Origin: an uncultured Pontibacter sp.
GTDB lineage: Bacteria > Bacteroidota > Bacteroidia > Cytophagales > Hymenobacteraceae
DNA: 64,000 nt
Direction of reading: 5' to 3'
Assembly: GCF_947495565.1 (NCBI RefSeq)
Contig: NZ_CANLZM010000006.1
Location: 124,001-188,000, forward strand
A program made the translations under genes and the position numbers. Numbering within the stretch: the stretch's first letter is position 1; each line of letters opens with the position of its first letter. Positions 1 through 64,000 of this stretch are shown in pieces. The notes beneath the pieces were generated by a model. It was not told the origin of the DNA. It did no database searches and saw only the letters and a program-made list of their open reading frames with translations.

Positions 1-376
1 GCACCAGAAACAGGAACGCTGCCAAAGAGCGTGTTTTCAGGTCGAAGCGGTTTTCCAGAAACTCGTAGGCTGTGTATACTTTCAGGCGGTAAAAAATCGG
101 GATAACCGTAATGGAAATGATCACCATCGCGATCGGCAGGCCGAAGTAAAACTGCACGAAACGCATGCCGTCTTCATAGGCCTGCCCAGGAGTAGACAGA
201 AAGGTAATGGCACTTGCCTGCGTCGCCATAATGGACAGCCCGATGGTCCACCACTTCATGCTGTTGTCGCCTTTCAGATAGCCTTCAATATCTTTGCTGC
301 CGCGCGTTTTCCAGACGCCATAGGTCACAATAAACCCTAGCGTACCCAGCAGCACTACCCAGTCAAGTGGCCTCAT
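1..376 (-). CDS. Sodium:solute symporter (SSS family), N-terminal part, cut by window edge
   Basis: The visible N-terminal 125 residues begin MRPLDWVVLLGTLG and hold the start of an SSS-family Na+-coupled transporter. A first membrane helix is followed by the family-typical stretch WWTIGLSIMATQASAITFLS and GQAYEDGMRFVQ, then another helix and FYRLKVYTAYEFLENRF. The start ATG overlaps the TGA of the small upstream gene (ATGA), so the two are translationally coupled. With the PIG-L deacetylase upstream on the same strand it probably forms one transcription unit, importing a sugar, amino acid or related solute. The substrate cannot be read from this fragment. Most of the protein lies outside the window. 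Confidence 0.88.
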   Translation of the reverse strand, partial: MRPLDWVVLLGTLGFIVTYGVWKTRGSKDIEGYLKGDNSMKWWTIGLSIMATQASAITFLSTPGQAYEDGMRFVQFYFGLPIAMVIISITVIPIFYRLKVYTAYEFLENRFDLKTRSLAAFLFLV

Positions 377-519
377 TCGTATAGTTTTGTGATGATGTAA
401 AAAAGGATGATCAGGAAAGCTAGGTTGCCCAGCACCAGCCAGTACATGCCGGCCCAGCGCTTAAAAAACGGAGGCTTCCCGATTAGTATCTCTTCGTCTG
501 CAGGATTATGGTTTTTCAT
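373..519 (-). CDS. Small single-helix membrane protein, putative symporter partner (48 aa)
   Basis: This 48-residue frame starts MKNHNPADEEILIGKPPFFK. It has a hydrophilic acidic N-terminus, then one membrane helix (about residues 27-43, WLVLGNLAFLIILFYII), and ends KLYE. Its TGA overlaps the ATG of the SSS symporter by the ATGA arrangement. Small one- or two-helix proteins encoded directly before SSS transporters are a known pattern in bacteria, and they may be accessory subunits. Function here is inferred from position and topology only. The start lies about 60 bases from the deacetylase stop, in the same orientation. Confidence 0.72.
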   Translation of the reverse strand: MKNHNPADEEILIGKPPFFKRWAGMYWLVLGNLAFLIILFYIITKLYE

Positions 520-582
520 GGATGATTTCTTTAGGACAGAAGACGCTTAACTACCATACATACCTTTTTCTCTGATTCTTAA

Positions 583-3126: not shown

Positions 3127-3502
3127 AGTATCAAGTTTGCAGCGTATGCGGCTGCTCCATATAGCTAAGGTAATCTCTGTAAAGCTAAGCAATTATGAGT
3201 TGCGATGGTAAACTACCGCCTGCCTTTCTGGCGAAGGGCGACAGCCTTTGGATATATAACAGCTATCGCACGTTATACTTCAGGTAATATGGCTTTAAGC
3301 AGCAATAAACTGGCTTTTTTACAAAGTATGAAAAATCTTGAAAAACGATAGGATTAAAATCAGTAAAGTACTATGTTTGTGCAGTTTCAGGCCTTAGCTT
3401 TCCAGTACTTATTGCCCTTGACTTAACTCTTGGAAGTGTAAAACGTAGAACATACACCTGCGAGAGCGTTACATACCTCTACCTAATTATGTGACATATT
3501 AT
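3127..3502. other. Divergent intergenic region with candidate promoter
   Basis: Lies between the divergently transcribed deacetylase and the unknown membrane protein. No convincing small ORF was seen. TATGTTTG at 3372-3379 (plus) fits the Bacteroidota -7 consensus TAnnTTTG, but it lies about 125 bases before the chosen start and has no TTG at the proper -33 spacing, so it is a weak candidate. The region also holds TATACTT at about 3270 and AAGTAT at about 3325, copies of the abundant motif. Confidence 0.4.
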
Positions 3503-4198
3503 ATGCCTAGCCAAAGAGAAAGCAATATAAATGACTTTGCGTTTGACTACCTGCGCAACCATTACACTACCCGTTTTGGCGCCAAGCACATTTTGGTGGA
3601 TAAAGACGAGCAAACAAAGCAGGGAAGTATAACACAAGGGCTTTTTTCTATGAAGAAAGAAGATAACACACTCTTTGTAGCGGCTTTGCATACCCATCAT
3701 TCCCCTGAAATTACGAGAGCACTTGTTAAGTATAAAAAGAAAGGCTTTAATGTGTTTCGCTTTGCCCTCACGTTGCTTACGCTTATTTCGGTTTTACTGG
3801 CGGGCCTGCTGCTAGGGCAGTTGGTTTCAGGAGCTGTAGCTGCTGTAGTACTGGCTATTAGTGTTTTTGCGCTTTACTCTTTTGTGGGTAAGCGGCTGCA
3901 GCAGCGAAAGTTAGCTCGTCTGCTGGATACACTGAAGAAAACGCCCGCTGACGAGCAGTGGCTTGGCCTCTCCATCAGCAGCCTCACCTTCCGTAACAAC
4001 GATCTAGCAAAGCAACTGCTGGCCATGTGCGAACGCCGCGGCGTTGGTATAATTACCGTAGGCCAGCGCGCTAAGGTAATCCTAATGAAAGAGCCACAAG
4101 CGGCTACCTGCCGACGCGGAGATTTTCTATCCCATTACAACGCTGATGCCCGCATACGCAAGGCGCTCTTAGGAGATTCGGTCTTACGCGTAGCATAG
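3503..4198 (+). CDS. Unknown two-helix membrane protein (231 aa)
   Basis: I do not recognise this protein. A soluble N-terminal segment of about 82 residues (with ILVDKDEQTKQGSITQGLF and KKEDNTLFVAALHT) is followed by two adjacent membrane helices (about residues 85-128). A basic linker QQRKLARLL and a second soluble segment of about 95 residues follow, with RGVGIITVGQRAKVILMKEP. The strand pattern on both sides of the helices loosely recalls a restriction-endonuclease-like or substrate-binding alpha/beta core interrupted by a membrane hairpin; that is a guess. I use the ATG at 3503. An in-frame GTG at 3491 would add four residues. It is monocistronic as far as can be seen. Confidence 0.65.
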   Translation: MPSQRESNINDFAFDYLRNHYTTRFGAKHILVDKDEQTKQGSITQGLFSMKKEDNTLFVAALHTHHSPEITRALVKYKKKGFNVFRFALTLLTLISVLLAGLLLGQLVSGAVAAVVLAISVFALYSFVGKRLQQRKLARLLDTLKKTPADEQWLGLSISSLTFRNNDLAKQLLAMCERRGVGIITVGQRAKVILMKEPQAATCRRGDFLSHYNADARIRKALLGDSVLRVA

Positions 4199-4300
4199 TA
4201 GTCCTCCCCTTTTTCTTCGCTGTTGTTCCTCTGTTCGCAACAATAGCGCTTCTGCTTTAGTACACATCCTACATGCACCCGTTACTGAAACTTAGAAGCT

Positions 4301-4384
4301 ATGACACTTATTCTTTTAATCATACTTGTAATTGCTTTAATTATTGGTGTAATCTGGTTTAAGTCTAACACCCCAAAGCGATAA
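4301..4384 (+). CDS. Possible 27-residue membrane peptide
   Basis: ATG to TAA frame of 28 codons coding for MTLILLIILVIALIIGVIWF followed by KSNTPKR. It is a nearly pure membrane helix with a positively charged C-terminal tail, giving N-out/C-in topology by the positive-inside rule. It lies 15 bases upstream of the DUF2461 gene on the same strand. The composition (hydrophobic helix then K/R tail) is that of a genuine bacterial membrane microprotein rather than random sequence. There is no strong ribosome-binding site, which is normal for this phylum. No function can be assigned. Confidence 0.42.
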   Translation: MTLILLIILVIALIIGVIWFKSNTPKR

Positions 4385-4399
4385 CATAATGTAGCCTCC

Positions 4400-6917: not shown

Positions 6918-8390
6918 ATGCAAAATTTAACCGAACTCACTAAAGAGGAGAAAGAACGCGGCAACAGCGGGTTTAAGCGTGAAATCACCCTCTATGACGC
7001 CATCATGATCGTAACAGGCGGCATGATCGGCTCCGGCATCTTCATTGTAACCGCCGATATTTCCCGTGCCGTTATCAGCCCCGGCTATATGCTGCTGGTG
7101 TGGCTTATCTCAGGCTTCCTGACGATGGTAGGCGCCGTTAGTTATGGCGAGCTGTCTTCTATGTTCCCGAATGTGGGCGGCCAGTATGTGTACCTCAAAG
7201 AGGCTTACAACAAAATGGTTGCTTTTCTATATGGCTGGACGCTTTTTCTGGTGATCCAGACAGGTGTGATTGCCGCCGTGGGCGTTGCGTTTGCGCGATT
7301 TACTGGTGTGCTGCTGCCGTGGTTCAGCGAGGATAACGTACTGCTGCGCTTAGGCGGGCTGGAATTTACATCGGTGCAGTTGCTGGCAATTACAAGCATC
7401 ATTTTTTTAACCTACATAAATTCTAAAGGTGTAAAAAGCGGCAAGCTGATCCAGAACATATTCGGCAGCACCAAACTAATTGCGCTGTTCGGGCTTATAC
7501 TTTTCGGCCTGCTGCTGGGCGTAAACGAAACTGCCATAGAAGCCAACTTCAGCAACTTTTGGGGCGAAAGCGGATCTTCCACAGCTGTACCAACCGGCAT
7601 GGCTTTAGTTTCGGCCTTGGGCATGGCCATGGTTGGCGCACTTTTCTCCGCCGACTCCTGGAACAATATTGGCTTCTCAGGCGATGAGATCGTGAACCCC
7701 AAACGCACAATTGTACTAAGTATGGTTATTGGTTCGGCAATTGTAATGGGTGTTTACATGCTGATAAACCTGGTATACCTGCTGGTGCTTCCGATGCACG
7801 GGTCCGCAGATGCAGCCACTGCCCTAGGCCAGGGCATCACCTTTGCCGATAACGACAGGGTAGCCGCCGCAGCCGCTGAAGTAATTGGTGGTTACAAGGC
7901 TACCGTAGCCATTGCCATCCTGATTATGGTTTCTACTTTCAGCTGTAACAATGGAGCCATACTTTCGGGAGCCCGTGTATATTACGCCATCGCTAAGGAC
8001 GGGCTGTTTTTTGAGCGCATGGGTCGCCTGAACAAGAACGGAGTGCCGGCAGGCGCGCTATGGCTGCAATGCCTGTGGGCTTGTATGCTCTGCCTCTCCG
8101 GCACCTACGGCGACTTGCTAGATTATGTGGTATTCGCGGTAATGCTTTTCTACATCCTGACTATAATCGGAGTATTTGTACTACGTAAAAAGCGGCCTGA
8201 CCTTCCCCGCCCTTACAAAGCTTTTGGTTACCCAGTGTTGCCTGCGCTCTACGTGCTGCTGGCTTCTGCCATTTGTATTATTCTGCTCATCTACAAACCG
8301 GTGTTTACCTGGCCAGGGCTGGTGATAGTGGCACTGGGGATTCCGGTGTTTTATCTTTTCGGCAGTAGGTTCGGCAGGTCTAAATCGTAA
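6918..8390 (+). CDS. APC-superfamily amino acid permease
   Basis: A 490-residue integral membrane protein with about 12 helices. The N-terminal family signature is plain: REITLYDAIMIVTGGMIGSG followed by IFIVTADISR, the unwound TM1 substrate-binding segment of APC transporters. Later come SYGELSSMFPNVGGQYVYLK (TM3 region), SADSWNNIGFSGDEI and NPKRTIVLSM, which fit the LAT/basic amino-acid exchanger branch. It imports or exchanges amino acids across the inner membrane. A -7-like box lies 17 bases upstream and a strong terminator 11 bases downstream, so it is monocistronic. AAGTATACTT overlaps the stop codon. Confidence 0.9.
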   Translation: MQNLTELTKEEKERGNSGFKREITLYDAIMIVTGGMIGSGIFIVTADISRAVISPGYMLLVWLISGFLTMVGAVSYGELSSMFPNVGGQYVYLKEAYNKMVAFLYGWTLFLVIQTGVIAAVGVAFARFTGVLLPWFSEDNVLLRLGGLEFTSVQLLAITSIIFLTYINSKGVKSGKLIQNIFGSTKLIALFGLILFGLLLGVNETAIEANFSNFWGESGSSTAVPTGMALVSALGMAMVGALFSADSWNNIGFSGDEIVNPKRTIVLSMVIGSAIVMGVYMLINLVYLLVLPMHGSADAATALGQGITFADNDRVAAAAAEVIGGYKATVAIAILIMVSTFSCNNGAILSGARVYYAIAKDGLFFERMGRLNKNGVPAGALWLQCLWACMLCLSGTYGDLLDYVVFAVMLFYILTIIGVFVLRKKRPDLPRPYKAFGYPVLPALYVLLASAICIILLIYKPVFTWPGLVIVALGIPVFYLFGSRFGRSKS

Positions 8391-8401
8391 AGTATACTTG
8401 C

Positions 8402-9508: not shown

Positions 9509-9880
9509 AAGTATACTTGCTGGGCAGTTAGACTGCATTTGATTTTCAGCAGATTAACCTGCGTGTGCATTTACTCAAAGCCTATCAACCTCATAATTGA
9601 CATCCCAAAAGATCTTCATATCTTTTCAGAACCGTCCTGATTCTCTGTTCAGAACTCACTGAAGTAATGAGCTTTATGGTGAAAAAGCACGGGGGAAGTA
9701 TGCGGAAGATGAAACGGAAGTTATACTTGCAGGAAGGAGATTGATAGGATTTCATACTTTGGGAGAAGTCCAGTGCAGCATTTAAAGGCATGGGCGGAGG
9801 CCTTAGTGTTTAAATTGAAGTTATACTTCTCATTCTCTTCTCCTGAAAAACTTCTATCTTTCTCATCGTACAAACATAGC
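9509..9880. other. Intergenic region without a recognisable gene
   Basis: About 370 bases. It starts with AAGTATACTT (9509-9518) directly after the SPW stop, then a short hairpin-like GCAGTTAGACTGC. It carries several further AAGTAT/ATACTT copies (about 9681, 9724, 9755, 9824). A longer in-frame extension of the downstream hydrolase runs through part of it but does not read like protein. No terminator or convincing promoter was seen. Confidence 0.4.
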
Positions 9881-29967: not shown

Positions 29968-32400
29968 ATGAAAAAAATTCTTCTCCTTATACTTTTCCTT
30001 TCAATCCAGATAGTTGCCACAGCGCAAAACAGCGGCAGTATCAGCGGGAAACTGATTACCCCGGGCGGGAGTCCGGCAGAAGGCATAACGGTGATGCTGA
30101 CGCAGGGGAATTTTGCCACTCTAACCGATTTAAACGGGGATTATATTTTGCAGAACCTGCCGCTGGGCAGCCATATGGTGGTAGCCAGAGGGTTAGGCTT
30201 CAAAGAAGTGCGCCGCGAAGTACTGCTTTCCGCAGATGCCCCAGCTGCTATCTTGAACATCACTCTCACGGCTAGCAGCAATGCGCTGCAGGAGGTGGAG
30301 GTGCTAGGCCGCAAGGAGACTTCCTATAAAAGCGAGTATTCCTTTATCGGCACTAAAACCGCCTCCCTTGTTATCGACGTGCCGCAAACCATCTCCACGG
30401 TAACCAAGGAGCTGATGGAGGACCAGCAGGCCTACCGCCTGACCGACGTGGTGAAGAACATTGCGGGCGTTAACCTGTACACGCACTACGACGACATGAC
30501 GGTGCGCGGCTTCCGCAATGGCTACGAAAGTGGCTACAGGCTCCTGAACGGGATGCGCTCGGGCTACAGTTACGGGAATGGCTTTTTTCGGATCCCGGTG
30601 ACGGCCAACATTGAGCGGGTGGAGGTGCTGAAAGGCCCTGGCGCGGCACTTTTCGGCGACATTAACCCGGGTGGCACGATCAACATGGTGACCAAGAAAC
30701 CGCTGGAGGAAGAACGCAAGGCGGTGAGCTTTTCGGTAGGCAGCTTCAACACAGTACGCACCGCCCTCGACTTTACCGGTCCGCTGAACGAGAACCAAAC
30801 CATGCTCTACCGTCTCAACTTCAGCTATGAGGATACCGAAACCTTCCGCGACATCATCGACAATAAATCCCTCCTCATTGCGCCCACGGTAACCTTTCTG
30901 CCGACCGACAAAACGACCATCAACGCAGAGCTGGTGTACAGCAACTTCGACGGCTACCTGGACCGTGGGCTAGTGATTCGTGGGGGCGATCTGTTCGGTA
31001 TGCCTTTCTCGTCGGCGCTTAATCAGCCAAGCGATTATTTCAAGATCAACGATTTTTACCTGAATGCCTCCCTTAACCACGGGTTTACAGACTGGCTTTC
31101 ATTCAACGCATCATACCTGAAGTTTACCTACTCTGAGGACCTGAGCGAGCACCGCACTGGCTATAATTTCCTAGATGCCCCGGCCAACACCATCATGGAC
31201 CTACGCTATTACAACCGCGTGGCGGAGGAGTATACCAACAGCTTCTCCGGGTACTTTACCCTGAACGCCAACACCGGTGCCATTAGCCATAAAATAGCTG
31301 TTGGGGCCGATTATATCGAGTTCAATACAGATAAGAACAGCTCGATGTGGGAGGCGAGGCAGCAGCTGATCGACGGAAAACCGGTGCAGCTGTCCTTCGA
31401 CCTGAACAACCCCTTTTACGAGCTGCGCGACCCGAGCAAGTACATCAGGCGCCCGCTGCCGAGCTGGTTCACAGACTATATTAACGCGGTATACAACACC
31501 ACCGGTATTTACGTGCAGGACCAGGTGGACCTGACCTCCAGGCTGAGCATGTTGGGCGGTTTGCGTTATGAGATGTTCCGGGATGAGCGCGACTACGGCG
31601 ATGGTGAGGAGCAGGTGCTGCAAAGCGTACTGTTGCCGCGCCTGGGCCTGACCTACAGTATACTCGACAACCTGAACTACTTTGCCAGCTACAGCCAGGG
31701 CTTTAAGCCGCTGAAGCCGGAGTTTATTAAGTTTCCTGAGCGCTACGGCAGCCAGGAGCCTTTCAAGAACGAAACCAGCTACCAGATTGAAACCGGCCTG
31801 AAAGGCGAGTTCTTCAACAAAGGCCTTTTCGCGACGCTCTCGCTTTACCAGATCGAGAAAAAGAACATGCTGGTGAACACGGCGCAACTCACTCTGGAAG
31901 GCAATCCGATCTATCGCCAAAACGGCAAGGCGCGCTCGCAGGGTGCTGAACTGGAACTGAGCGGTACCCTTCGCCCAAACCTGAGCCTTAACTTCAACTA
32001 TGCCTATAACCGCACAGAGGTGCTGGAGTCGAGTGTGGCGGTAGAAAACGGCATGCCGCTGGCCAATGCGCCGGAGCACGCGGGAGGTTTGTGGGCCAAG
32101 TATACCTTCGATTTGCCTGCGCTGCGCGGCTTAGGCTTTGCTGTGGGTGGGCAGCACATGAGCCGCCGCCGCATGGAAAGCCAGGTGAACGACATCCAGT
32201 CAGGGGAAATGCTGTGGTCGTACTGGCCATCTTACACCACCCTGGATGCTGCCCTTTTCTACAACATCAACAAGTTTAAGTTTAACCTGAACATGAACAA
32301 CCTGCTGGACGAGAAGTACTTCGTGGGCGGCTACGATTACTACCGCTCAAGCCCGGGCGCGCCACGCAATTTTATGGCAACGATAGGCTATACTTTTTAA
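29968..32400 (+). CDS. TonB-dependent siderophore/metal receptor with carboxypeptidase-like domain
   Basis: An 810-residue outer-membrane receptor. Signal peptide (1-19), then a carboxypeptidase-regulatory-like domain (GSISGKLITPGGSPAEGITV to NLPLGSHMVVARG). Next is a TonB-dependent siderophore receptor plug (TIGR01783 type): VIDVPQTISTVTKELMEDQQ, MTVRGFRNG, ANIERVEVLKGPGAALFGDI, NPGGTINMVTKKP. The barrel ends in RNFMATIGYTF with terminal Phe. It has no STN signalling domain, unlike the receptor at 54482. Together with the operator upstream and the ABC genes downstream it suggests regulated uptake of a metal complex. The AAGTAT/ATACTT motif is absent from 29998 to 32097. Confidence 0.9.
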   Translation: MKKILLLILFLSIQIVATAQNSGSISGKLITPGGSPAEGITVMLTQGNFATLTDLNGDYILQNLPLGSHMVVARGLGFKEVRREVLLSADAPAAILNITLTASSNALQEVEVLGRKETSYKSEYSFIGTKTASLVIDVPQTISTVTKELMEDQQAYRLTDVVKNIAGVNLYTHYDDMTVRGFRNGYESGYRLLNGMRSGYSYGNGFFRIPVTANIERVEVLKGPGAALFGDINPGGTINMVTKKPLEEERKAVSFSVGSFNTVRTALDFTGPLNENQTMLYRLNFSYEDTETFRDIIDNKSLLIAPTVTFLPTDKTTINAELVYSNFDGYLDRGLVIRGGDLFGMPFSSALNQPSDYFKINDFYLNASLNHGFTDWLSFNASYLKFTYSEDLSEHRTGYNFLDAPANTIMDLRYYNRVAEEYTNSFSGYFTLNANTGAISHKIAVGADYIEFNTDKNSSMWEARQQLIDGKPVQLSFDLNNPFYELRDPSKYIRRPLPSWFTDYINAVYNTTGIYVQDQVDLTSRLSMLGGLRYEMFRDERDYGDGEEQVLQSVLLPRLGLTYSILDNLNYFASYSQGFKPLKPEFIKFPERYGSQEPFKNETSYQIETGLKGEFFNKGLFATLSLYQIEKKNMLVNTAQLTLEGNPIYRQNGKARSQGAELELSGTLRPNLSLNFNYAYNRTEVLESSVAVENGMPLANAPEHAGGLWAKYTFDLPALRGLGFAVGGQHMSRRRMESQVNDIQSGEMLWSYWPSYTTLDAALFYNINKFKFNLNMNNLLDEKYFVGGYDYYRSSPGAPRNFMATIGYTF

Positions 32401-43072: not shown

Positions 43073-45541
43073 TTACTGCACCGGGCGGTTCTTCACGTAC
43101 TTCTCCAGCCACTGGTCCATCTCCCACAGCATGTGCAGCACCGACTCCTTAGCGCGGTAACCGTGGCTCTCAGCTGGCAAAAACACCAGACGAGCCGTAG
43201 CACCATGTCCTTTCAGGGCGTTGTAAAAACGCTCACTCTGGATCGGGAAAGTGCCGGAGTTATTGTCTGCCTCACCGTGGATAAGCAGGATTGGCTCGTT
43301 CACTTTGTTGGCAAACGAGAACGGCGACATCTGGAAGTATACTTCCGGAGCATCCCAATACGTACGCTCCTCCGCCTGGAAACCGAACGGCGTGAGAGTA
43401 CGGTTATAAGCACCGCTACGCGCAATACCGGCGGCAAACAGATCGGAGTGCGCCAGCAGGTTGCCGGTCATAAAGGCTCCGTAAGAGTGGCCTCCTGCAG
43501 CCACACGGTTCGGATCGGCCACGCCCATTTTCACCACTTCGTTAATAGCGGCCTTGGCGCTAGACACCAGCTGCTGCACATACGTATCGTTTGGCTGTGC
43601 ATCGCCTTCGCCTACAATCGGAATATCGGTTCTATCAAGCACGGCGTAGCCCTGCGTTACCCAGAATAGCGGAGAGCCCCAGCTGATGCGCGTAAACTCA
43701 TAAGGAGAGCTTTTTACCTGTCCGGCAGCAGAGGCGTCTTTAAACTCACGTGGGTACGCCCACAGCAGCATCGGCAGCGGTGCATCGCCTTTCTTGTAGT
43801 CTTTCGGCAAGTATAAAATAGCTGTCAGGTTCACGCCGTCTTCACGCTTATACTTCAGCATTTGCTTCTGCACACCCTCCAGCTGCGGTGTTGGGTGCGG
43901 AAACTTTGTGATTTGCGTCAGTTTTTTATCATCCATGTCACGCACGAAATAGTTCGGCGGGTCGTTCTCAGATTCTCTTCTGGTGATAATCTTCATTTCC
44001 TTCAAGTCGATGATATCCACCGGGCGCTCATAGTATGGTGCCTCGGATCTCCAAAGTATATCTGCCTTCTTAGACTTCAAGTTAAACTCGCTCACATACG
44101 GACGATTACCCTCCGGCGACCCTCCCTCCGAAATCATGTAAATGTTCTGCTTCTTTTTATCTGTCAGCAGCACGCTTCGGCCATACTTGTTCTTGGTGAA
44201 CACAGGCGAGCCTGGGTCGGTATAGTTATCCTCGTAGGAACGCTCGATCAGAACAGTGGCTTTGGCGGCTGGCTTGGCAGGGTTAACCAAAGTGCTGCGC
44301 TCCTGGCGGGTTTTCCACCAGCGCTCATTTACGATGGCCATATCGTCTCCCCACATCATGCCACGGTAGCGGTATTTGGTAGCGGCTATTTGCGTAGGTT
44401 TGTCGTTAAACGGGGCAGCCAGCATGTATACGTGGTCACGCACGGCGGCCTCTTTGTTGGCGTCGCCTCCATCCTGCGCTTCTGCCCAGTAAAGGGTTGC
44501 AGGCTTATCAGGGCGCCAGTTATAGCCGCGCGGGCCTTTGGCTACGGCATCAAACGCAATCGGAATATCCTCGGCAAGCGGCAGCTGCGCCAGCTCTTTC
44601 ACCACCTGTCCGTTGCGGTTCCATACTTCCACCTTGTAAGGGAAGTAGTAATGCGGCACAAGATAAGAGTATGGTTTCTGCATGGTCTCCACCAGCAGGT
44701 ACTGGCCGTCAGGCGAGGTTTCCATGCTTTTGATGATGCCTGCCTCTCCTACCGGCTCCTGCTTTCCGTCCACAGAAACCAGCTTGAGCTGCGTTTGCAT
44801 GTAGTAGTCAAACAGCTGCTCGTCGTTGCGGTTCTTCAGCAGATCCTGGTAGGTGCGTGAGGGTTTAACTTTGCCGATGTTCTGCTGCACGGTTGGGCCT
44901 GCGGGCACGTTAGAGGCCTTGGGCATTTCGCCACGCTTCTCGTCCACAAACTTTACCACCAGCGTTTTGCTATCCGGCAGCCACTCGAACGGGCGGCCAC
45001 TGTACGCATCGTTAATAACAGCCTCTGTCAGCTTTTTTGCCTGCTTTGTGCTCAGGTCGGCCATCCAGAGCTCTATGCCGTTGGCTTTGGTGTTGGTGAA
45101 CGCCACATACTTCTCATCCGGCGACCAGGCCACATTGGATAACTGGGCGTTCTGGGGCAGGCCTTTTATCTCGGATTCATCGCCATTGCTTACCTTTTTC
45201 AGCTTGAGCCCATTGTAATAGTAGCCGCGGCTCGGGCCATTGGTAGCCGGGTTAATGCGCATACCGGCCAGACGGCTCTCCGGCGCAGCCACCTCCTCTA
45301 TACTTGGGTAACCCGCACTTTCCATCAGCAGCATCCAGTCGCCTTTGGCGCTTATACTTACCGACGGCGTGTTTGGCGCCTCAATAATAGCGGCCATTGT
45401 TTCAGGTGGTCTTTGGTAGCCGGAGTTGGCCTCCTGCCCCTTTTGGGCAAGTGCCGCTGGTGCAGCACCGCCACCCAACAGCAGCAGGCACAGCAGCTGT
45501 GAGGCTACGCGCTTAGCGGCTTTGTTTTTAGTAAGGTTCAT
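43073..45541 (-). CDS. S9 family (prolyl oligopeptidase/glutamyl-endopeptidase-like) secreted peptidase
   Basis: An 822-residue exported enzyme with a signal peptide ending near APAALAQ. The N-terminal propeller has repeated WSPDEKYVAFTN-like blades (LPQNAQLSNVAWSPDEKYVA, MLMESAGYPSIEEV). The C-terminal alpha/beta hydrolase has nucleophile Ser686 in AAGGHSYGAFMTGNLLA, LLIHGEADNNSGTFPIQ for the acid and PAESHGYRAKESVLH for the histidine. This resembles the plant/bacterial glutamyl endopeptidase-like S9 branch. It is dense in the AAGTAT/ATACTT motif (nine copies by hand count), including the perfect palindrome at 43333-43346. Confidence 0.9.
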   Translation of the reverse strand: MNLTKNKAAKRVASQLLCLLLLGGGAAPAALAQKGQEANSGYQRPPETMAAIIEAPNTPSVSISAKGDWMLLMESAGYPSIEEVAAPESRLAGMRINPATNGPSRGYYYNGLKLKKVSNGDESEIKGLPQNAQLSNVAWSPDEKYVAFTNTKANGIELWMADLSTKQAKKLTEAVINDAYSGRPFEWLPDSKTLVVKFVDEKRGEMPKASNVPAGPTVQQNIGKVKPSRTYQDLLKNRNDEQLFDYYMQTQLKLVSVDGKQEPVGEAGIIKSMETSPDGQYLLVETMQKPYSYLVPHYYFPYKVEVWNRNGQVVKELAQLPLAEDIPIAFDAVAKGPRGYNWRPDKPATLYWAEAQDGGDANKEAAVRDHVYMLAAPFNDKPTQIAATKYRYRGMMWGDDMAIVNERWWKTRQERSTLVNPAKPAAKATVLIERSYEDNYTDPGSPVFTKNKYGRSVLLTDKKKQNIYMISEGGSPEGNRPYVSEFNLKSKKADILWRSEAPYYERPVDIIDLKEMKIITRRESENDPPNYFVRDMDDKKLTQITKFPHPTPQLEGVQKQMLKYKREDGVNLTAILYLPKDYKKGDAPLPMLLWAYPREFKDASAAGQVKSSPYEFTRISWGSPLFWVTQGYAVLDRTDIPIVGEGDAQPNDTYVQQLVSSAKAAINEVVKMGVADPNRVAAGGHSYGAFMTGNLLAHSDLFAAGIARSGAYNRTLTPFGFQAEERTYWDAPEVYFQMSPFSFANKVNEPILLIHGEADNNSGTFPIQSERFYNALKGHGATARLVFLPAESHGYRAKESVLHMLWEMDQWLEKYVKNRPVQ

Positions 45542-48993: not shown

Positions 48994-49367
48994 TTGTCGG
49001 TTTAGACTTTGAAGGAGCTGCTCTTTCGGACTCTCCGCTCTTTCGGATTTGCAATCCGAAAGTATACTTTGCGTCCGCTCACCTCGGCTCTTTCGGATTT
49101 GTAATCCGGAAGTATGCTTTTGCCAGGATTTATAATCCGATTTTATACTTTGTCAGCTGTTGAGCTGCGGCTATAAGTTAAAAATCGGATTGCAAATCCT
49201 CATAGTAGGTGCTTCGGGATTGCAAACCCCGAAGAGCAGGAATCCTAAAGAGCAGGCAAATACAAGTCTCGCCCTTGCTGTGTTTTTTAGCCAGCAAGGT
49301 ATTGGTGAACGGCAAGTATGCACACTAAAGTTAACGGCATTAAGGGGTGGTTGAACAATGGCGCAAA
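48994..49367. other. Non-coding region filled with palindromic repeats
   Basis: Between the cupin gene and the convergent unknown gene at 49368. It contains five palindromic units of one type (see the repeat entry), several AAGTATA/TATACTT copies and a CCTTGCTG/CAGCAAGG hairpin at 49273-49299 without a U-run. No gene is supported. Confidence 0.6.
49041..49233. repeat. Cluster of five REP-like palindromes (GGATTTGCAATCC type)
   Basis: Units at 49041-49061 (TTTCGGATT-TGC-AATCCGAAA), 49091-49111 (CGGATTTGTAATCCG core), 49126-49139 (GGATTTATAATCCG), 49186-49199 (CGGATTGCAAATCC) and 49213-49233 (TTCGGGATT...AACCCCGAA). They share GGATT-nnn-AATCC and vary mostly by changes that keep pairing. Copies of AAGTAT/ATACTT follow the first three units directly. 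Confidence 0.75.
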
Positions 49368-52808: not shown

Positions 52809-53486
52809 ATGTCCAAACAGTCACAAAAGCTTCAGGAGTACGAAGCGCTATTCAGGCGCAACTATGAGCGCCTGTGCCAGCGGGTGCAGTGCATCACGGG
52901 TGACGCTGCCGTAGCCGAAGACCTGGTGCAGGAGGTGTTCATCAGTTTTTGGAACGACGCGCAGTGGCAGGAGGTGGAGAATCCGGAGGCTTACCTTTAC
53001 CGGGCTGCCATCAACAAGACACTTAATCATGTCAGCAGCCAAAAGCGCCGGAGTGTTATAGCGCAGCAGTATCAGCAGGAGCAGCCGCAGACTGTTGAGC
53101 CAAACCAGGAGTTAGAGCTGCAGGAACTGCAATATAAAATACAGCAGACCATTGATATGCTACCGCCCATGTGCCAGAAGGTATTTCTGCTGAGCCGCTA
53201 CGAGGAGATGACGCACAAAGAAATTGCAGACTTCCTGAACATCTCCCCCAACACCGTGGATAACCACATTAAAAAAGCCCTGGCCATACTTCGGAAAGCA
53301 CTTTTAGGCCTGCTCCTGGTGTGCCTCGAAATTATTTTCAGATTTTTTCCTGAGGGAGTAGCGGTACCGACACGTTCACCTGTCATACTTATGCAAAGCG
53401 ATAAAAACAACTGGTGCCTTGGCAAGAGCCGCCAAGCTATAATCAAACTTAAAGCAGCAAGCTGCACCTCCTACTATGGATATTAA
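52809..53486 (+). CDS. ECF sigma factor (Bacteroidota sigma-70 type)
   Basis: A 225-residue ECF sigma factor. Region 2: LFRRNYERLCQRVQCITGDA, VAEDLVQEVFISFWND. Region 4: LPPMCQKVFLLSRYEEMTHK, EIADFLNISPNTVDNHIKKA with the helix-turn-helix. It continues with a hydrophobic tail and about 40 extra residues, overlapping the FecR start by 11 bases. It is the first gene of a FecI-FecR-FecA type module and directs transcription of surface uptake genes when released by the FecR protein. An ATACTT copy lies just before the start region. Confidence 0.9.
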   Translation: MSKQSQKLQEYEALFRRNYERLCQRVQCITGDAAVAEDLVQEVFISFWNDAQWQEVENPEAYLYRAAINKTLNHVSSQKRRSVIAQQYQQEQPQTVEPNQELELQELQYKIQQTIDMLPPMCQKVFLLSRYEEMTHKEIADFLNISPNTVDNHIKKALAILRKALLGLLLVCLEIIFRFFPEGVAVPTRSPVILMQSDKNNWCLGKSRQAIIKLKAASCTSYYGY

Positions 53487-54465
53487 CTACTGGGATATAG
53501 CCGCCAAACACTTCGCAGGCAAGGCCACGCCTGCCGAGGAGAAAGCGCTGCGCCAGTGGCTGGAGCAGAATCCGGAGAATCGGGAGCAGTACGAGGCGCA
53601 ACAGCAACTCTGGAAACTGACAACGCCTGCTCCCGCTACAGCGGTAGATACCGATGCCGCCTGGCAAAAAGTGCGCACAAGGCTGCAGCCGCCGCACAGC
53701 CAGCAGGCAAAAGTTATTCCGCTGTACCGGCAGCTATGGCGCGTGGCCGCCGCCGTGGTTATACTTGTCGGCATCGTCTGGCTGGCCAAGCTGTACTTCC
53801 TGCCTTATTATGGGCTGGAGGTAGTAAGGTCAGGCAGCGGGCAGATGGCGGTTATACTTCCGGACAGCAGCCAGGTGTGGCTGAACAAAGAAAGTATACT
53901 TGCCTACGACCCGGACTTTGACGGGCCGCAGCGGGAGGTGCAGCTGGAGGGTGAGGCGTTCTTTGAGGTGACGCATAACCCACAGCAGCCTTTTGTAATT
54001 GAGGCGGAGGCGTCGGAAACGCAAGTGCTGGGAACCTCCTTTAACCTGCGCGCATACCCCCAAGAGCAGACGGTGGAGCTGACGGTGAATACAGGAAAAG
54101 TAGCCTTTACGGCTACAGAAGGTTCAGCGCAGGCCATTGTTACACCGGGCTTCGGGGCCATACTTCAGAAACAGAAAAACAGCGTTGAGAAGTATGAAGC
54201 GGCAGGTGAAAATACTTGGGCTTGGAAAACCGGAAAGCTGCACTTCAACGGGCAGCCGCTGCGGGAGGTGGTAAGTGATTTGGAACGCTACTACAATCTA
54301 AAAATCCAGCTAAAACAACCAAATCTAGGCAGCTGTCGCTTTACGGGCACTTTCCAAAACTCAGACCTGCAGGAAGTGCTGCAGGTGCTGGAGGCATCGC
54401 TGCAAGTAAAAATCGCAAAGCAAAACGAACAGACTTATACGATCACAGGCGAAGGCTGCCACTAA
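53476..54465 (+). CDS. FecR-family anti-sigma factor
   Basis: A 329-residue single-pass inner-membrane protein. The N-terminal cytosolic segment (DUF4880-like: DIAAKHFAGKATPAEEKALR, QWLEQNPENREQY) binds the sigma factor. The membrane helix is VAAAVVILVGIVWLAKLYF (about residues 90-108). The periplasmic FecR domain has SGSGQMAVILPDSSQVWLNK, REVQLEGEAFFEVTHNPQQP and LGTSFNLRAYPQEQTVELTV, then a DUF4974-like C-terminal STN-fold (LHFNGQPLREVVSDLERYYN). It relays the receptor signal to the ECF sigma factor, with which it overlaps by 11 bases. Confidence 0.93.
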   Translation: MDINYWDIAAKHFAGKATPAEEKALRQWLEQNPENREQYEAQQQLWKLTTPAPATAVDTDAAWQKVRTRLQPPHSQQAKVIPLYRQLWRVAAAVVILVGIVWLAKLYFLPYYGLEVVRSGSGQMAVILPDSSQVWLNKESILAYDPDFDGPQREVQLEGEAFFEVTHNPQQPFVIEAEASETQVLGTSFNLRAYPQEQTVELTVNTGKVAFTATEGSAQAIVTPGFGAILQKQKNSVEKYEAAGENTWAWKTGKLHFNGQPLREVVSDLERYYNLKIQLKQPNLGSCRFTGTFQNSDLQEVLQVLEASLQVKIAKQNEQTYTITGEGCH

Positions 54466-54481
54466 AGAAACCACACCTTCT

Positions 54482-57118
54482 ATGAACAAACGACTACTAT
54501 GCCTGAGCATAGGCTGGCTGGCTATTGCCTTTACCGTGCTGGCGCAAACAAACATGCTGGACCAAAAGGTGACGGTCAGGCAAGACAACGCCACTATCCA
54601 GCAGGTGCTCGCGGAGCTGTCCGAGAAGTATAGTATCAACTTCTCCTACGGCAACGACCTGGTGCCACTGCAGCAGAAAGCAAGTATAAACGCAGATAAC
54701 CAGCCGCTGCGCCAAGTACTGAAGGAGCTGTTGAAAAGCAGCAACACGAGTTATAGTTTGATTGGCAACCAAATTATACTTCAGCCTCTAAAAAAGTCAA
54801 CACCAAAGCGGATAACGATCAGCGGGCATATTACAGATGCAGCTTCCGGAGAGAGTTTGGCAGGGGCTATTGTAACCAATGGTACAGCCGGAGCGACAGC
54901 CAACACCTATGGCTTTTACAGCCTGACTGTACCCGCCGCCGGGCAAGTGCAGCTGCAGGTGCGTTACCTGGGTTACGAACCGCTGCACGTTTCTCTTCCC
55001 GCTGTTTCTGCGGATACCAGTATACAGCTGCAGCTCCAGCCGCTTTCCAACCAGATAGCCGAAGTAAGTATAACCGTTGAGAAAGCCACTGACCTGCAGC
55101 AGGCCAACCGCCTTACCATGCGCGGATCTGACGTGAAGCAGCTACCGCGCCTGATGGGTGAGGCCGATGCAGTAAAGGCTATCCAACTGATGCCCGGTGT
55201 GCTGGGCGGCCGCGAAGGCTCCTCCGACCTGATCGTGCGCGGCGGCAGCCCCGACCAGAACCTCATCCTGCAGGATGGTGTGCCGGTATATAATGTGTCG
55301 CACCTGCTAGGCATGTTTTCAGTATTTAACCCGGATGCCATTAAATCAGTGGAGCTGATAAAAGGTGGTTTTCCGGCTCCTTATGGCGGCAGGCTATCGT
55401 CGGTGGTGGATGTGCAGCTGAAGGAAGGCAATAATCAGCAGTTCTCTGGTGAGGGTGCCGTGGGGCTGATTTCTTCTAAGCTGATGCTGGAAGGGCCGAT
55501 CAAGAACGAGAAAACGTCTTACCTGGTGGCGGCACGGCGCACGTACCTTGATGCACTGGCCGCCGCCGCAGCGGCCATGAGCGGGGAAGACATCAGCAAT
55601 TATAACTTCTACGACCTCAACGCCAAAATCAATCACACTTTCTCCCCTACCAACAGACTCTACCTGAGCGTGTACAGCGGCCAGGACAAATTTTCGGATA
55701 AGCAGGAATTCTACAGCACAGGCACTAGTGAGCAACAAAAGTATAAAATGCACTGGGGCAACATCACCAGCGCCCTCCGCTGGAACCACGTGTTCAACCC
55801 GAAGCTCTTCAGCAACACCACCCTCACCTACAGCCGCTATCGCTTTGCGCAGCAGTCAGAGGTGGAGAGCCCGCAACTAAGCCGGTCTGTGGACTATGGC
55901 TTGGGCATCAGAGATTTGGGTGCCAGAATAGATTTTGATTACCTGCCCCACACCCGGCACAGTGTTCGGTTCGGCGGCAGCTACACCTTTCATACTTTCA
56001 GGCCAGAGGTTACCACGCTTCAGACAGATTCCATCACCCTCACCACCGACTCCTTCTCCACCATACAGGCACACGAGTTTTATACTTATGCTGATGACCG
56101 CATTCAGTTAAGCGAGCGACTGCAGGCCATATTGGGACTTCACTTTTCTGGTTTTGCCGTGAACGGAGAGGTTTATACTTCGCTGCAACCGCGCCTGGCG
56201 CTGGGCTATACTTCGGCCAGTGGCGTGAGCGTGCGGACCTCTTTTGCCACCATGGTACAGTACCTGCACCTGCTCAGCAACACCTCCACCGGCACCCCTA
56301 CCGACATCTGGGTACCCGCCACCGACAAAGTGAAGCCACAGCGTTCGTGGCAAGCCACAATCGGTGCAGCCATCGTACTGGGGCAGCAGTGGGAACTGAC
56401 ATCCGATGTATACTATAAGGAAATGCAGGACGTGGCCGAGTTTAAGGATGGGGCTGATTTTATTAGTGAGTTCTTCCGGAGCGGCCCCGAAACCAACTTC
56501 GCCAACTTTGTGTCGCCGCCCTACGAAACGCGCATTGTAAGCGGCAAAGGCTGGAGCTATGGCTCGGAGTGGCTGCTGCGCAAGCGGCAGGGCAAGACCA
56601 CCGGCTGGCTCGGCTATACGTTGGCGTGGTCTTGGCGGCAGTTGGACAGCATCAACTTTAATCAGAAGTACCCCTATACTTACGATAGCCGCCACAGCAT
56701 CTCGCTGGTAGCCAACCACCAGCTTTCCGAAAAACTTAGTATAGGCGGCAGCTGGGTCTACCGCACCGGCTACGTCACCACCTTGCCAGAGGCAAAATAC
56801 AAAGCTTATAACGAGCCGGTGTATCAACCGGGAGCATGGCACCCCTCCGTGGAAACGGTTGATTACCTGGGCGAGCGCAACAACTACCGCATGCCTTCTT
56901 ACCACAGGTTAGACCTCAGCCTGACGCACACCAAGAAGAAAAAAAGGGGCGAGCGCAGCTGGAATATATCTATCTACAATGCCTACAACCATAAGAACCC
57001 ATTTTTTATGCGCCTGCCCCAGCCAAGTTCCGGCGGCGACGGCAGCTTACCACGCCGCCTGTACAAGGTGTCCTTGTTTCCGGTGCTCCCATCAGTTAGT
57101 TATGGTTTTAAATTTTAA
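54482..57118 (+). CDS. FecA-like TonB-dependent receptor with STN and carboxypeptidase-like domains
   Basis: An 878-residue outer-membrane receptor. Signal peptide (1-21), STN/secretin-TonB short domain (TVRQDNATIQQVLAELSEKY to SSNTSYSLIGNQIIL), carboxypeptidase-regulatory-like domain (ISGHITDAASGESLAGAIVT), plug (LPRLMGEADAVKAIQLMPGV, DLIVRGGSPDQNLILQDGVP, SVELIKGGFPAPYGGRLSS) and barrel ending SVSYGFKF. The STN domain touches FecR in the periplasm, so this receptor signals substrate occupancy. It lies 16 bases after FecR and 12 before the DUF4249 gene. Motif density is high: 20 AAGTAT/ATACTT sites in 52809-57982. Confidence 0.93.
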   Translation: MNKRLLCLSIGWLAIAFTVLAQTNMLDQKVTVRQDNATIQQVLAELSEKYSINFSYGNDLVPLQQKASINADNQPLRQVLKELLKSSNTSYSLIGNQIILQPLKKSTPKRITISGHITDAASGESLAGAIVTNGTAGATANTYGFYSLTVPAAGQVQLQVRYLGYEPLHVSLPAVSADTSIQLQLQPLSNQIAEVSITVEKATDLQQANRLTMRGSDVKQLPRLMGEADAVKAIQLMPGVLGGREGSSDLIVRGGSPDQNLILQDGVPVYNVSHLLGMFSVFNPDAIKSVELIKGGFPAPYGGRLSSVVDVQLKEGNNQQFSGEGAVGLISSKLMLEGPIKNEKTSYLVAARRTYLDALAAAAAAMSGEDISNYNFYDLNAKINHTFSPTNRLYLSVYSGQDKFSDKQEFYSTGTSEQQKYKMHWGNITSALRWNHVFNPKLFSNTTLTYSRYRFAQQSEVESPQLSRSVDYGLGIRDLGARIDFDYLPHTRHSVRFGGSYTFHTFRPEVTTLQTDSITLTTDSFSTIQAHEFYTYADDRIQLSERLQAILGLHFSGFAVNGEVYTSLQPRLALGYTSASGVSVRTSFATMVQYLHLLSNTSTGTPTDIWVPATDKVKPQRSWQATIGAAIVLGQQWELTSDVYYKEMQDVAEFKDGADFISEFFRSGPETNFANFVSPPYETRIVSGKGWSYGSEWLLRKRQGKTTGWLGYTLAWSWRQLDSINFNQKYPYTYDSRHSISLVANHQLSEKLSIGGSWVYRTGYVTTLPEAKYKAYNEPVYQPGAWHPSVETVDYLGERNNYRMPSYHRLDLSLTHTKKKKRGERSWNISIYNAYNHKNPFFMRLPQPSSGGDGSLPRRLYKVSLFPVLPSVSYGFKF

Positions 57119-57130
57119 GATTTGATCAGG

Positions 57131-57982
57131 ATGAAAAAGATAAAGTATACTTTACCGCTGCTATGCCTGTTTTTTATACTTACCAGCTGCGAAACGGTAG
57201 TAGAAGTAGATTTGCCCACACATGAGCCAAAGCTGGTTGTTAATGCCGTTATCAACCCAGATAGTATACTCACAGTAGATGTGAGCGCGAGCCAGAGCGC
57301 CCTTTCCAATCAACCGCACGGGCAGGTAGAAAATGCTACTGTACAGGTGTACCATGCCGGGCAGCTTTTATATACGCTGCCGCATACAGGCAACGGTAAG
57401 TATAAAGCAGATCAAAAACCGCAGGTGCAGCAGCACTACGAACTGAAGGTAGAAGCGCCGGGCCTGCCAAAGGCCAGCGCAACAACTTATATTCCTGCAG
57501 CACCGCTCATCCGTAACCTGATAGCTACACCTGTTGCGAGCACAGCCTGGTCAGGGACTACCGTCAGCGCCACTTTTACCCTAACAGATGCTCCAGGCCA
57601 GGAAAACTTCTACTACATACAGGCCTATACGCCAGACACAAGCTACTTGGATGCAAAACCTTTCAAGAGATCTGTAAGCCTTGAGCTAGCTGAGCCGTTT
57701 GAATACGAATTTACGATGGAGGATCGATACTTTTTCAGTGATAAGCTATTTGAAGGAAAGGCGGTAACGCTGCGCCTACACTTGGAGAACTCTCTTGAGC
57801 AGACAACTTATATACGTATTGCGCAGATAACCAGAGCATACTACGATTATGTCCGTACGCTCGATAAGCAATCATACAGAGATAACTTTGCCACACCTCC
57901 CGGGCCTGTATTCAACAACATAGCAGGTGGCCTAGGGCTTTTTGCAGGCTATAACGCTACGGTGCTGGCAGTAAAACCTTAA
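57131..57982 (+). CDS. DUF4249 lipoprotein, partner of the TonB receptor
   Basis: A 283-residue lipoprotein (signal KIKYTLPLLCLFFILTSC with lipobox Cys). The DUF4249 hallmark follows at once: ETVVEVDLPTHEPKLVVNAV and NPDSILTVDVSASQS, and the mature part is beta-rich with a C-terminal FNNIAGGLGLFAGYNATVLA. DUF4249 proteins regularly follow FecA-like receptors in Bacteroidota and are thought to be surface substrate-capture subunits. The ATG at 57131 is used rather than a TTG at 57122. It is the last gene of the sigma-FecR-receptor unit. Confidence 0.88.
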   Translation: MKKIKYTLPLLCLFFILTSCETVVEVDLPTHEPKLVVNAVINPDSILTVDVSASQSALSNQPHGQVENATVQVYHAGQLLYTLPHTGNGKYKADQKPQVQQHYELKVEAPGLPKASATTYIPAAPLIRNLIATPVASTAWSGTTVSATFTLTDAPGQENFYYIQAYTPDTSYLDAKPFKRSVSLELAEPFEYEFTMEDRYFFSDKLFEGKAVTLRLHLENSLEQTTYIRIAQITRAYYDYVRTLDKQSYRDNFATPPGPVFNNIAGGLGLFAGYNATVLAVKP

Positions 57983-58178: not shown

Positions 58179-58193
58179 ACCTGCTGCTCTATA

Positions 58194-59851: not shown

Positions 59852-60070
59852 ATTGCAGCGCATCTATGCTGTAAAATGGTATAGAAGCGTTATAAAAGAT
59901 GGCGCTATTTGTACCTGCTGCTGATTGTGCAGGGGATGAAGAGACACTACCAAGCGTGAAAACAAACTTAACCACATTTAAACAAGGGTAAAAGATAACA
60001 GGAAGCATTTAAAAGCATTGACTGATGCTGAGAGCTCCGACTTCTGCCCCTGCTACTACCTGATATTTGT

Positions 60071-63000: not shown

Positions 63001-63166
63001 GGGTATTGCCGTGGTGGGCGGTTTGATTCTGGCTACCGGGCTTACACTTTATGTTATCCCAGCGGTGTATTCATACTTCTCCTCAGCAGAGGCCAACGTT
63101 ATCCGAGACCTGGACGAGAAGGAAGAGACAGCAGAGGCGAAAAAGCCGCAGCCGGAGTATGTCTAA
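60071..63166 (+). CDS. RND family efflux pump permease (HAE1/AcrB-like)
   Basis: A 1031-residue inner-membrane pump with 12 helices and two large periplasmic loops. It begins SNISIKRPVLAIVMSITIIV, followed by FGFIGITYLGVREYPSVDPP and IVNVRTSYTGANAETIESEI. The proton-relay Asp pair of TM4 is in GIVLAIGLVVDDAIVMLENI. The second half repeats the fold (LIYLALSAQFESFRDPVIIM, GLVTKNGILLVEFANQRKEE). It drives export of drugs, detergents or metabolites using the proton gradient. It is preceded by 219 bases and followed 58 bases later by a TolC gene, with the same direction throughout. Confidence 0.95.
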   Translation: MASLSNISIKRPVLAIVMSITIIVFGFIGITYLGVREYPSVDPPIVNVRTSYTGANAETIESEITEPLEESINGISGIRTLTSTSSEGSSNITVEFNLDVDLETAANDVRDRVARAQRRLPEDAEPPTVAKADADANPILFLGIRSENRTMLELSDIGMNVFKEQLQTIPGVSEIMIWGDKRYSMRLWMDPDKLAALRVTPLEVQNALARQNVELPSGSIEGATTELSVRTMGRIATPEEFNNLIVRQDDDRLIRFQDIGYAQLSPENEKTVLRYNGIPMIGVVLVPQPGSNQIEIADEFYRRLEHIKKDIPDDLQLTIGFDNSQYIRASIAEVQETIFVAFGLVVVIIFLFLRDWRSTLIPVVAIPVSLIGSFFIMYVMDFSINVLTLLGIVLAIGLVVDDAIVMLENIYTRIERGEEPMKAAKKGASEIYFAIISTTVALAAVFMPVAFLEDTTGRLFREFGIVVAGSVIISSFVSLTLTPMMSSRILKHRERPNWFYRKTEPFFTSLTNGYRRSLEAFMSVRWVAFILIVISAGAIWWQMTTLQSELTPDEDRSGLRINATGPEGASFEFMDQYMNELTALVNDSVQGISSITSMTRNSNSGFIRLRLVPSDERGKTQQQIVEDLPALINQIPGARAFASGDKGLGGGRGSGQPVQFVVQSQNMEKLREIIPPFLEAAQQDPTFNFVDVNLKFNKPELRVEIDREKAQSLGVTVRDIAQTIQLGLSGQRFGYFVKGGKQYQILGQVARENRSEPLDLRSLYVKSSSGELIQLDNLIELKEESASPQVYRFNRFAAATFSASLAKGKTIGDGVEAMDAIADQVLDETFQTSLTGQSRDFSESSGSLMFAFLLALGLIYLALSAQFESFRDPVIIMFTVPLALSGALLSLWFFDQTLNIFSQIGMIMLVGLVTKNGILLVEFANQRKEEGLSKLEAATDAAVSRFRPILMTSLSTILGTLPIALALGTGAESRVPMGIAVVGGLILATGLTLYVIPAVYSYFSSAEANVIRDLDEKEETAEAKKPQPEYV

Positions 63167-63224
63167 GCTTTGCCAGCATCAATAATTTTAGCCAAAGGAT
63201 TTTAACGCGATAGATCAAGTATAA

Positions 63225-64000
63225 ATGTTTTCATACAGAGCCGCAGCGCTTATTTTGATAGGGTTAGCACTGTTACTACCAGGCCGGGCCCAAAGCCAGG
63301 AGCAGCTTTCGCTGGAGCAGGCCATCCGCATAGGTTTACAGAACAATTATGATATACAGATTGCCAACAGGCAGGAAGCTATTTCTGAAAACAACGTAAC
63401 GCTTGGCAACGCTGGTTTTTTGCCTAACATAGACGGCAGAGCAAACCGTACTTTCAGTGAGAACAACTCCAGGCAGGAGTTTAGCACAGGCCCGGACAGA
63501 GTGCGCACTGGTGCCAGTTCCAACAACCTCGGCTACGGTGTAAACCTTAACTGGGTAATCTTTGATGGCCTGGGCATGTTTATAAACCTGGAGCGGCTGA
63601 AGGCACTGGAGAAATCAGGAGAGCTCCTGACCAAGCAGACCATTGAGAACACGCTTGCTAATATTGCCGCGAGCTATTTTGAGGTGGCGCGTCAGTCTTT
63701 TAAAATACAGGCGCTGCAAGACGCAATTGCCATTTCGGAAGCTCGCGTGGAAATAGCTCAGGCGCAGTACGAGGTTGGCGTAAGTGCTAAAGTAGAAATT
63801 CTGCGGGCGCAGGTAGATTATAATGCCGACAGATCTGAACTCCTGCTGCAGCAGGAGTTGCTGCAAAATGCCAAAATTAACCTGAACCAACTGCTGGGCC
63901 GCAACCCGGATATTGACTTTGCGGTGACAGACAGCATGATGGTTGATGCCACGGTAAACTATAGTGCCGCATCCGGCAGCCTTAATGCCGCCAACCCGCT
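63225..64000 (+). CDS. TolC family outer-membrane efflux protein, cut by window edge
   Basis: The visible 258 residues begin MFSYRAAALILIGLALLLPG, a signal peptide ending near RAQSQ. The TolC start follows: LSLEQAIRIGLQNNYDIQIA, NRQEAISENNVTLGNAGFLP. The helical hairpin has SYFEVARQSFKIQALQDAIA, EARVEIAQAQYEVGVSAKVE and ILRAQVDYNADRSELLLQQE, ending in NLNQLLGRNPDIDFAV. It forms the outer-membrane channel of the tripartite pump encoded upstream. The C-terminal half is beyond the window. ATG at 63225, with AAGTATA 8 bases before it. Confidence 0.93.
   Translation, partial: MFSYRAAALILIGLALLLPGRAQSQEQLSLEQAIRIGLQNNYDIQIANRQEAISENNVTLGNAGFLPNIDGRANRTFSENNSRQEFSTGPDRVRTGASSNNLGYGVNLNWVIFDGLGMFINLERLKALEKSGELLTKQTIENTLANIAASYFEVARQSFKIQALQDAIAISEARVEIAQAQYEVGVSAKVEILRAQVDYNADRSELLLQQELLQNAKINLNQLLGRNPDIDFAVTDSMMVDATVNYSAASGSLNAANP

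Follow-up and report, generated by a model that had tools for sequence, protein, structure and literature searches.

An interspersed seven-base word with single-letter dialects in the genus Pontibacter: a candidate self-recognition sequence of the DNA-uptake type

Our analysis of a 64,000-nucleotide stretch of DNA from an uncultured Pontibacter sp. (the window; contig NZ_CANLZM010000006.1, positions 124,001 to 188,000) demonstrates that the short word AAGTATR is real, dense and evolving genome-wide, and that it exists in dialects within the genus. A preliminary description of the window had reported an excess of ATACTT and its complement AAGTAT; this genome-wide excess is confirmed, and the dialects inside one genus are a new finding beyond it. 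We propose, at a probability of about 0.5, that AAGTATR serves in self-recognition in the manner of a DNA-uptake sequence (DUS), with a weak drive acting through recombination to maintain it. That DNA uptake drives the process is inferred, as are the existence of a protein that reads the word and what that protein is.

The window contains 129 copies of AAGTATA (63 + 66), where Markov models of order 2 and 3 predict 12 and 26, and 196 copies of the hexamer ATACTT/AAGTAT, where ∼40 are expected at order 2. The whole genome to which it belongs (4.52 Mb in 44 contigs, hereafter the own genome) holds 8,095 copies of AAGTATA (3,975 + 4,120) and only 436 of the same word written backwards (217 + 219). 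Using a 464-kb sample made up of the window plus 20 stretches of 20 kb from the own genome, we counted 866 AAGTATA as compared to 94, 182 and 430 expected at orders 2, 3 and 4, so that the excess persists over third- and fourth-order expectation, even though the order-4 model itself already holds much of the word, and the refuting condition named in the preliminary description is not borne out on this sample. The 20 hexamers that had been counted by eye in one 5.2-kb part of the window become 24 on recounting (16 + 8), 22 of these being AAGTATR. The form of the word given earlier, AAGTATA, can be refined to AAGTATR: among 1,359 aligned AAGTAT sites position 7 is A in 64% and G in 27% (C and T in 4% each), with A preceding the word in 40%, T disfavoured just after it (9%), and little signal farther out. 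Its distribution in the window is as follows.

1..64000, both strands: interspersed word AAGTATR, 79 copies on the plus strand and 102 copies on the minus strand
29988 to 32098: longest gap between adjacent AAGTATR in the window, 2,110 bases
52809..57982: the 5.2-kb stretch counted by eye, with 22 AAGTATR, within a sigma factor, FecR, TonB-receptor and DUF4249 gene group

The genes of the last stretch, which encode in series a sigma factor, a FecR-like protein, a TonB-dependent receptor with an STN domain and a DUF4249 protein, resemble a cell-surface signalling uptake locus.

The excess is independent of codons, frame, strand and gene position, as the preliminary description had claimed. Within the 356 open reading frames (ORFs) of the sample, assigned by a simple longest-ORF rule rather than a gene finder, 911 AAGTATR are present as opposed to 156 after synonymous codon shuffling within genes, which rules out codon or dipeptide usage as the cause. 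Enrichment holds in each of the six orientation and frame classes (3.7- to 12.1-fold), sense copies number 448 and antisense copies 463, and the two strands carry 605 and 626 sites (complete 5-kb bins) at a spacing that is near random (coefficient of variation 1.12). Enrichment of AAGTATA over order 2 is 9.1 in coding and 8.3 in intergenic DNA; because these values are nearly equal, the higher density between genes (4.7 per kb, versus 2.3 per kb within them) is mostly due to base composition. The AT-richness of the word and its higher density between genes would be in keeping with an origin in which no protein reads it and a cellular bias in mutation or composition, or else the usage of codons and dipeptides, produces it, yet such an origin is hardly credible. 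In addition to the shuffling result, neighbours of the word with one mismatch occur at 1.35 times and those with two mismatches at 0.99 times expectation (range 0.97–0.99), the reversed word is rare, and related species differ by one letter. Moreover, second contigs of the same cell show the word at only 1.4 to 2.8 times order-2 expectation as opposed to 9.5 to 15 times in 20-kb chromosome samples. The reversed-word and neighbour-word controls together with this second-contig contrast refute a composition or mutation bias in its simple form. In the small sample of poor regions that we considered (three second contigs, two gene islands and one ribosomal operon) sites are scarce; DUS likewise are scarce in foreign DNA and in genes under strong constraint.

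We assigned 50 Pontibacter genomes to classes by their counts of three words. AAGTATA alone (the A dialect) is found in 19 of them with 4,114 to 11,818 copies, AGGTATA (the G dialect) in 12 with 5,748 to 9,303 copies, and AACTATA (the C dialect) in four with 12,524 to 13,168 copies, so that one word dominates in 35 of the 50, as in the dialects of DUS. Four further genomes carry AAGTATA and AACTATA together (10,614/3,531; 9,116/6,094; 7,552/8,118; 5,110/11,674), and in one of these mixed genomes (G191) both words are present in each of two 20-kb stretches. The word is weak in two genomes (G163 and G188) and none of the three words is enriched in nine. Several genomes low in AAGTATA have another enriched word one letter off. 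In G182, one of the nine, TATATA occurs at 4.5 times expectation in 53 kb (loci L174, L175 and L193), with A disfavoured two bases before it and T two bases after it; this may represent a fourth dialect, set in a different register.

The dialects follow clades when the 50 genomes are placed in a tree by ComEC (one gene, midpoint root). The four AACTATA genomes and three of the four mixed ones form a clade of seven (100/100), while the 12 AGGTATA genomes group with the AAGTATA-bearing P. ruber at weak support (92/68). AAGTATA is found on many lineages and is therefore probably ancestral. The word-free genomes fall into two supported groups, one of G160, G174 and G182 with the weak G188 and one of G154, G176, G180 and G184, while G183 and G193 are unplaced; judging from this placement, the word was therefore probably lost more than once. 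Word-free genomes are also larger (5.81 Mb, n = 9, versus 4.62 Mb, n = 41; Mann-Whitney p 1.2e-5, for rounded sizes uncorrected for kinship).

The word is strong enough to shift amino-acid usage. Where the C dialect is used, the dipeptides Asn-Tyr (AAC TAT) and Thr-Ile (ACT ATA) occur at 1.54 and 1.45 times expectation, compared to 1.15 and 1.06 in the A dialect, whereas Lys-Tyr and Ser-Ile reach 1.22 and 1.20 in the A dialect as compared to 0.91 and 1.01 in the C dialect. Likewise, Gly-Ile is at 1.34 in the G dialect and at 1.17 in the A dialect.

Individual sites are retained between species. When 13 of 14 named Pontibacter loci, including that of the C-dialect P. fetidus, were aligned to the window region (21 to 36 sites each), 20–50% of the AAGTATR sites of the window were intact in the relatives versus 7–20% for control words of the same composition, the word being ahead in 13/13 comparisons. 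For the AACTATR sites of P. fetidus, conservation does not exceed that of control words, and these sites coincide with AAGTATA in relatives at only 0 to 2 of 17 to 31 sites (8 comparisons), which leaves a switch of dialect by direct flipping of old sites unsupported. Because so few C-word sites overlie AAGTATA, a change of dialect seems to proceed by the loss of old sites and the gain of new ones elsewhere, and not by a site-by-site flip.

Outside the genus the word is not enriched to a comparable degree. Among 204 genomes of the family Hymenobacteraceae a large AAGTATA excess is confined to Pontibacter (50 genomes including the own genome, whose closest named species by one protein are P. litorisediminis, P. 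anaerobius and P. flavimaris at 92%, 91% and 90% identity); the other 154 have at most ∼2.5 times the reversed-word control, and a draw of 291 genomes from the order included 246 of other families, in which no AAGTATA excess of Pontibacter size was found. Counts of AGGTATA and AACTATA cover the genus Pontibacter only. A scan for similar words in the 51 of 66 other-taxon loci that reach 12 kb gave top scores of 17.2 (L114) and 15.8 (L098), compared to 19.9, 32.1 and 37.2 for three Pontibacter loci, and with one locus per genome such a scan does not distinguish a genome-wide word from a local repeat. The highest-scoring of these loci, from Marinifilum flexuosum, contains CCTTGGCA 18 times in 22 kb where 0.8 are expected, which may be either a local repeat or another interspersed word. 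Separately, several Pontibacter loci, word-free ones included (L028, L179, L180), and the samples of the own genome and of G175 show an excess of TCCGGA and of the dicodons TTC-AGG and TTC-CGG, which is apparently unrelated to AAGTATR.

To describe the force that maintains the word we used a rough scaled strength, S, the logarithm of word enrichment over one-mismatch enrichment, which is taken from ratios without a fitted model. S amounts to 2.0 to 2.6 in coding and intergenic DNA and in all three dialects. Going by these ratios, a weak and uniform force per site would fit a transmission bias better than selection for placement. In the model that we favour, a competence pathway without type IV pili would contain a sequence-specific DNA-binding component that prefers word-bearing fragments, and fragments from kin that carry the word would be recombined into the chromosome more often. 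A weak drive (scaled strength ∼2 per site) would then accumulate the word wherever homologous DNA is exchanged, regardless of strand, frame or gene. A one-base shift in the specificity of the recognising protein, at times via a two-word stage, would cause existing sites to decay while others appear at new places, which would produce the dialects AAGTATR, AACTATR and AGGTATR, and where that protein is lost the word would fade. The more specific proposal of a pilus-free, sequence-specific uptake whose specificity shifts by single letters within one genus, perhaps through an outer-membrane barrel and a surface protein as proposed for Riemerella, is tentative, and we rate it somewhat short of an even chance.

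Components that such a pathway could use are present. ComEC was found in 50/50 Pontibacter genomes (and is, for this very reason, uninformative as a marker of the presence or absence of the word), and a ComEA-like protein of 314 amino acids, with an apparent membrane anchor and two HHH_3 (helix-hairpin-helix) stretches, is full length in 19 of the 20 loci read. Longer PF12836 matches of ∼750 amino acids, which we take to be Tex, were set aside as a non-competence protein. In one genome (G167; loci L209 and L232) neither comEC nor the ComEA-like gene is intact and AAGTATA is down to ∼1.0 per kb, the lowest value in its clade of nine, so that a decay of the word after loss of competence is possible in this single case; G147, outside that clade, has a still lower AAGTATA density yet an uninterrupted comEC.

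Several observations weigh against uptake as the driver. The competence genes do not track the word: ComEC is present in all nine genomes that lack the three words, as is the ComEA-like protein in those four of the nine that were read (G154, G160, G182 and G184), and in two word-rich drafts (G185 and G187) the comEC frame is interrupted, which may be an assembly error or may mean that ComEC is dispensable. A PilB/PilT-type ATPase, and with it the type IV pilus machinery whose pilin reads the word in typical DUS systems, was not seen in the 50 genomes by an ATPase search in which pilins were not searched. PF00437 gave only short P-loop matches of ≤25.9 bits (in most genomes 31 of the 32–45 first-look candidates were scored), three of the 50 genomes lying just above the cut-off that 13 of 14 control genomes pass. 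Because no such ATPase was seen, the known DUS receptors are unlikely to be what reads the word. No gene for a protein that reads it was found among our searches of Pontibacter genomes, and natural transformation of Pontibacter was not found in the open-licence literature of PubMed Central, where the sole match concerned LexA. Finally, palindromic double sites, AAGTATACTT, are 3 to 8.5 times over expectation, with 50 half-sites versus 17 expected in the A dialect, 196 versus 23 in the C dialect and 16 versus 4 in the G dialect. This suggests a symmetric recognition protein, and we know of no DUS for which such double sites are a hallmark. The window has six of them.

8390..8399: palindromic double site AAGTATACTT
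9509..9518: palindromic double site AAGTATACTT
43335..43344: palindromic double site AAGTATACTT
49060..49069: palindromic double site AAGTATACTT
53892..53901: palindromic double site AAGTATACTT
57143..57152: palindromic double site AAGTATACTT

These double sites are an argument for the main rival to an uptake word, a binding site for a dimer that organises or segregates the chromosome, which would bind the half-site and prefer the palindrome, with selection keeping the sites and the dialects tracking the specificity of the protein. The poverty of the second contigs and the near-random spacing would be in line with this as well. We nevertheless consider it unlikely, as more than 8,000 individually selected sites would be a heavy load, and an S that hardly differs within and between genes is more suggestive of a process than of selection for placement. 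In addition, the strand polarity expected of a KOPS-like element was not seen in G175, the nine of 50 species without the three words fit an essential organiser poorly, and no candidate protein was identified.

Strand polarity also bears on a reading of the word as the Chi site of an AddAB recombination nuclease, which would protect and recombine incoming linear DNA that carries it. An AddB-like protein of ∼970 amino acids, presumably AddB by its size and PDDEXK domain, is indeed found in 50/50 genomes, and in the own-genome samples 668 of 1,239 sites lie on the G-rich strand (668 to 571, 54%; correlation of strand bias with GC skew r 0.47). G175, however, shows no such bias (515 to 508, r 0.11; strands were assigned by GC skew without mapping the origin), so that replication polarity of the Chi or KOPS kind was not seen there and is weak in the own genome. 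We looked for dialect-following residues in AddB, Tex, the ComEA-like protein and ComEC, aligning up to 17 genomes (seven A, four C-clade and four G, plus G182 and G160, which were not counted) of the 20 fetched per locus, or 50 for ComEC; G195, counted in the A class, carries the C word as well, and the mixed G159 and G191 were counted in the C class. No convincing set emerged. Only four of 647 AddB positions invariant in the seven A-word genomes are changed in all four G-dialect genomes, none of them in the N-terminal half. Three of the 43 positions changed in the C clade do lie in the N-terminal part, at 63–69, but the 43 changes (6.6%) match the rate of ComEC on the same long branch (16/232, 6.9%). 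AddB is also present in the word-free genomes. The Chi reading is not supported and we give it only a slim chance.

The asymmetric seven-mer ending in R resembles the recognition sites of type IIG/IIL enzymes, which would suit a HIP1-like origin, in which the word is the target of an orphan DNA methyltransferase, its marks steer mismatch repair, and mutations toward the methylated site are kept. This model has been put forward for HIP1 (Elhai 2015, PMC4390886, cited here from excerpts), a word which is likewise dense and interspersed, and which in some genomes is replaced by other words, each with a matching methyltransferase. The preliminary description had called for a matching methyltransferase or binding protein. 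The latter was not found, and none of the N6-methyladenine (m6A) methyltransferase families PF01555, PF02086 and PF02384 is common to all word-bearing genomes (PF00145 and the MmeI/Eco57I models were not searched): PF01555 occurs in 31/50, PF02086 in 13/50, and strong PF02384 matches are patchy. The word-rich G156 (9,120 sites) has no PF01555 or PF02086 and only weak PF02384 matches (best 7.0e-5), and a C5 enzyme is a poor fit since the sole cytosine swaps strand between the A and C dialects. By the searches of these three families methylation coupling is not supported, and a HIP1-like origin appears improbable. Furthermore, HIP1 is an eight-base palindrome tied to orphan methyltransferases, while the Pontibacter word is asymmetric and its half-site dominates, only 50 of 866 AAGTATA belonging to AAGTATACTT.

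The likeness to HIP1 or DUS that the preliminary description had drawn is supported by the counts, the frame independence, the near strand balance and the conservation of sites between species, and also by the within-genus dialects, a feature reported for both (excerpts of PMC3630211 and PMC4390886). The DUS of Neisseriaceae are closest: according to the available text of PMC3630211, their dialects differ by one to few letters and follow phylogeny, S. muelleri has two dialects in one genome (2,257 and 2,292 copies), and the top density (5,918 in 2.4 Mb) is close to that of Pontibacter. As with DUS, the Pontibacter word is over-represented genome-wide by thousands of interspersed copies, in both orientations, in and between genes. 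DUS differ in being 10–12 bases long rather than seven and in being read by the type IV pilin ComP (PMC3868556, in part), whereas no pilus ATPase was found in Pontibacter, where double sites are favoured. The comparison therefore points to a likeness to DUS without membership among them, as the pilus feature is absent from our search results.

The uptake signal sequences of Pasteurellaceae are longer than a seven-mer and depend on type IV pili. They share with the Pontibacter word a genome-wide excess, which the excerpted PMC1939737 explains by molecular drive, although they belong to an unrelated phylum. Within the Bacteroidota, transformation of Riemerella needs ComEC, DprA, ComF, RecA, a helix-hairpin-helix protein, a DUF5689 protein, an outer-membrane protein with a carboxypeptidase-regulatory domain and a DUF1343 protein, and homologues of its outer-membrane barrel protein are reported only in Flavobacteriaceae (both from the available part of PMC8459023). 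R. columbina prefers its own DNA, but in the portion of PMC7965970 at hand (Table 3) a k-mer count gave only A/T-rich words and no sharp word such as that of Pontibacter. By analogy, these findings from a genus of the same phylum, in which ComEC and a helix-hairpin-helix protein are required, make a pilus-free uptake word plausible.

As the preliminary description had supposed, no account of the word in this phylum was found in open-licence PubMed Central papers; uptake words have been described for Pasteurellaceae and Neisseriaceae (PMC1939737, in excerpt). If our interpretation is true, Pontibacter would join them as a third and independent case, from Bacteroidota and with no type IV pili, which would separate the evolution of such words from the pilus, and would represent the first dialect system of uptake words in Bacteroidota, with four genomes using two words at once. 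The genus would then allow single-letter shifts, two-word intermediates and absences to be compared over 50 genomes, and, if the word does act in uptake, adding the right one to DNA could ease genetic work on environmental strains.
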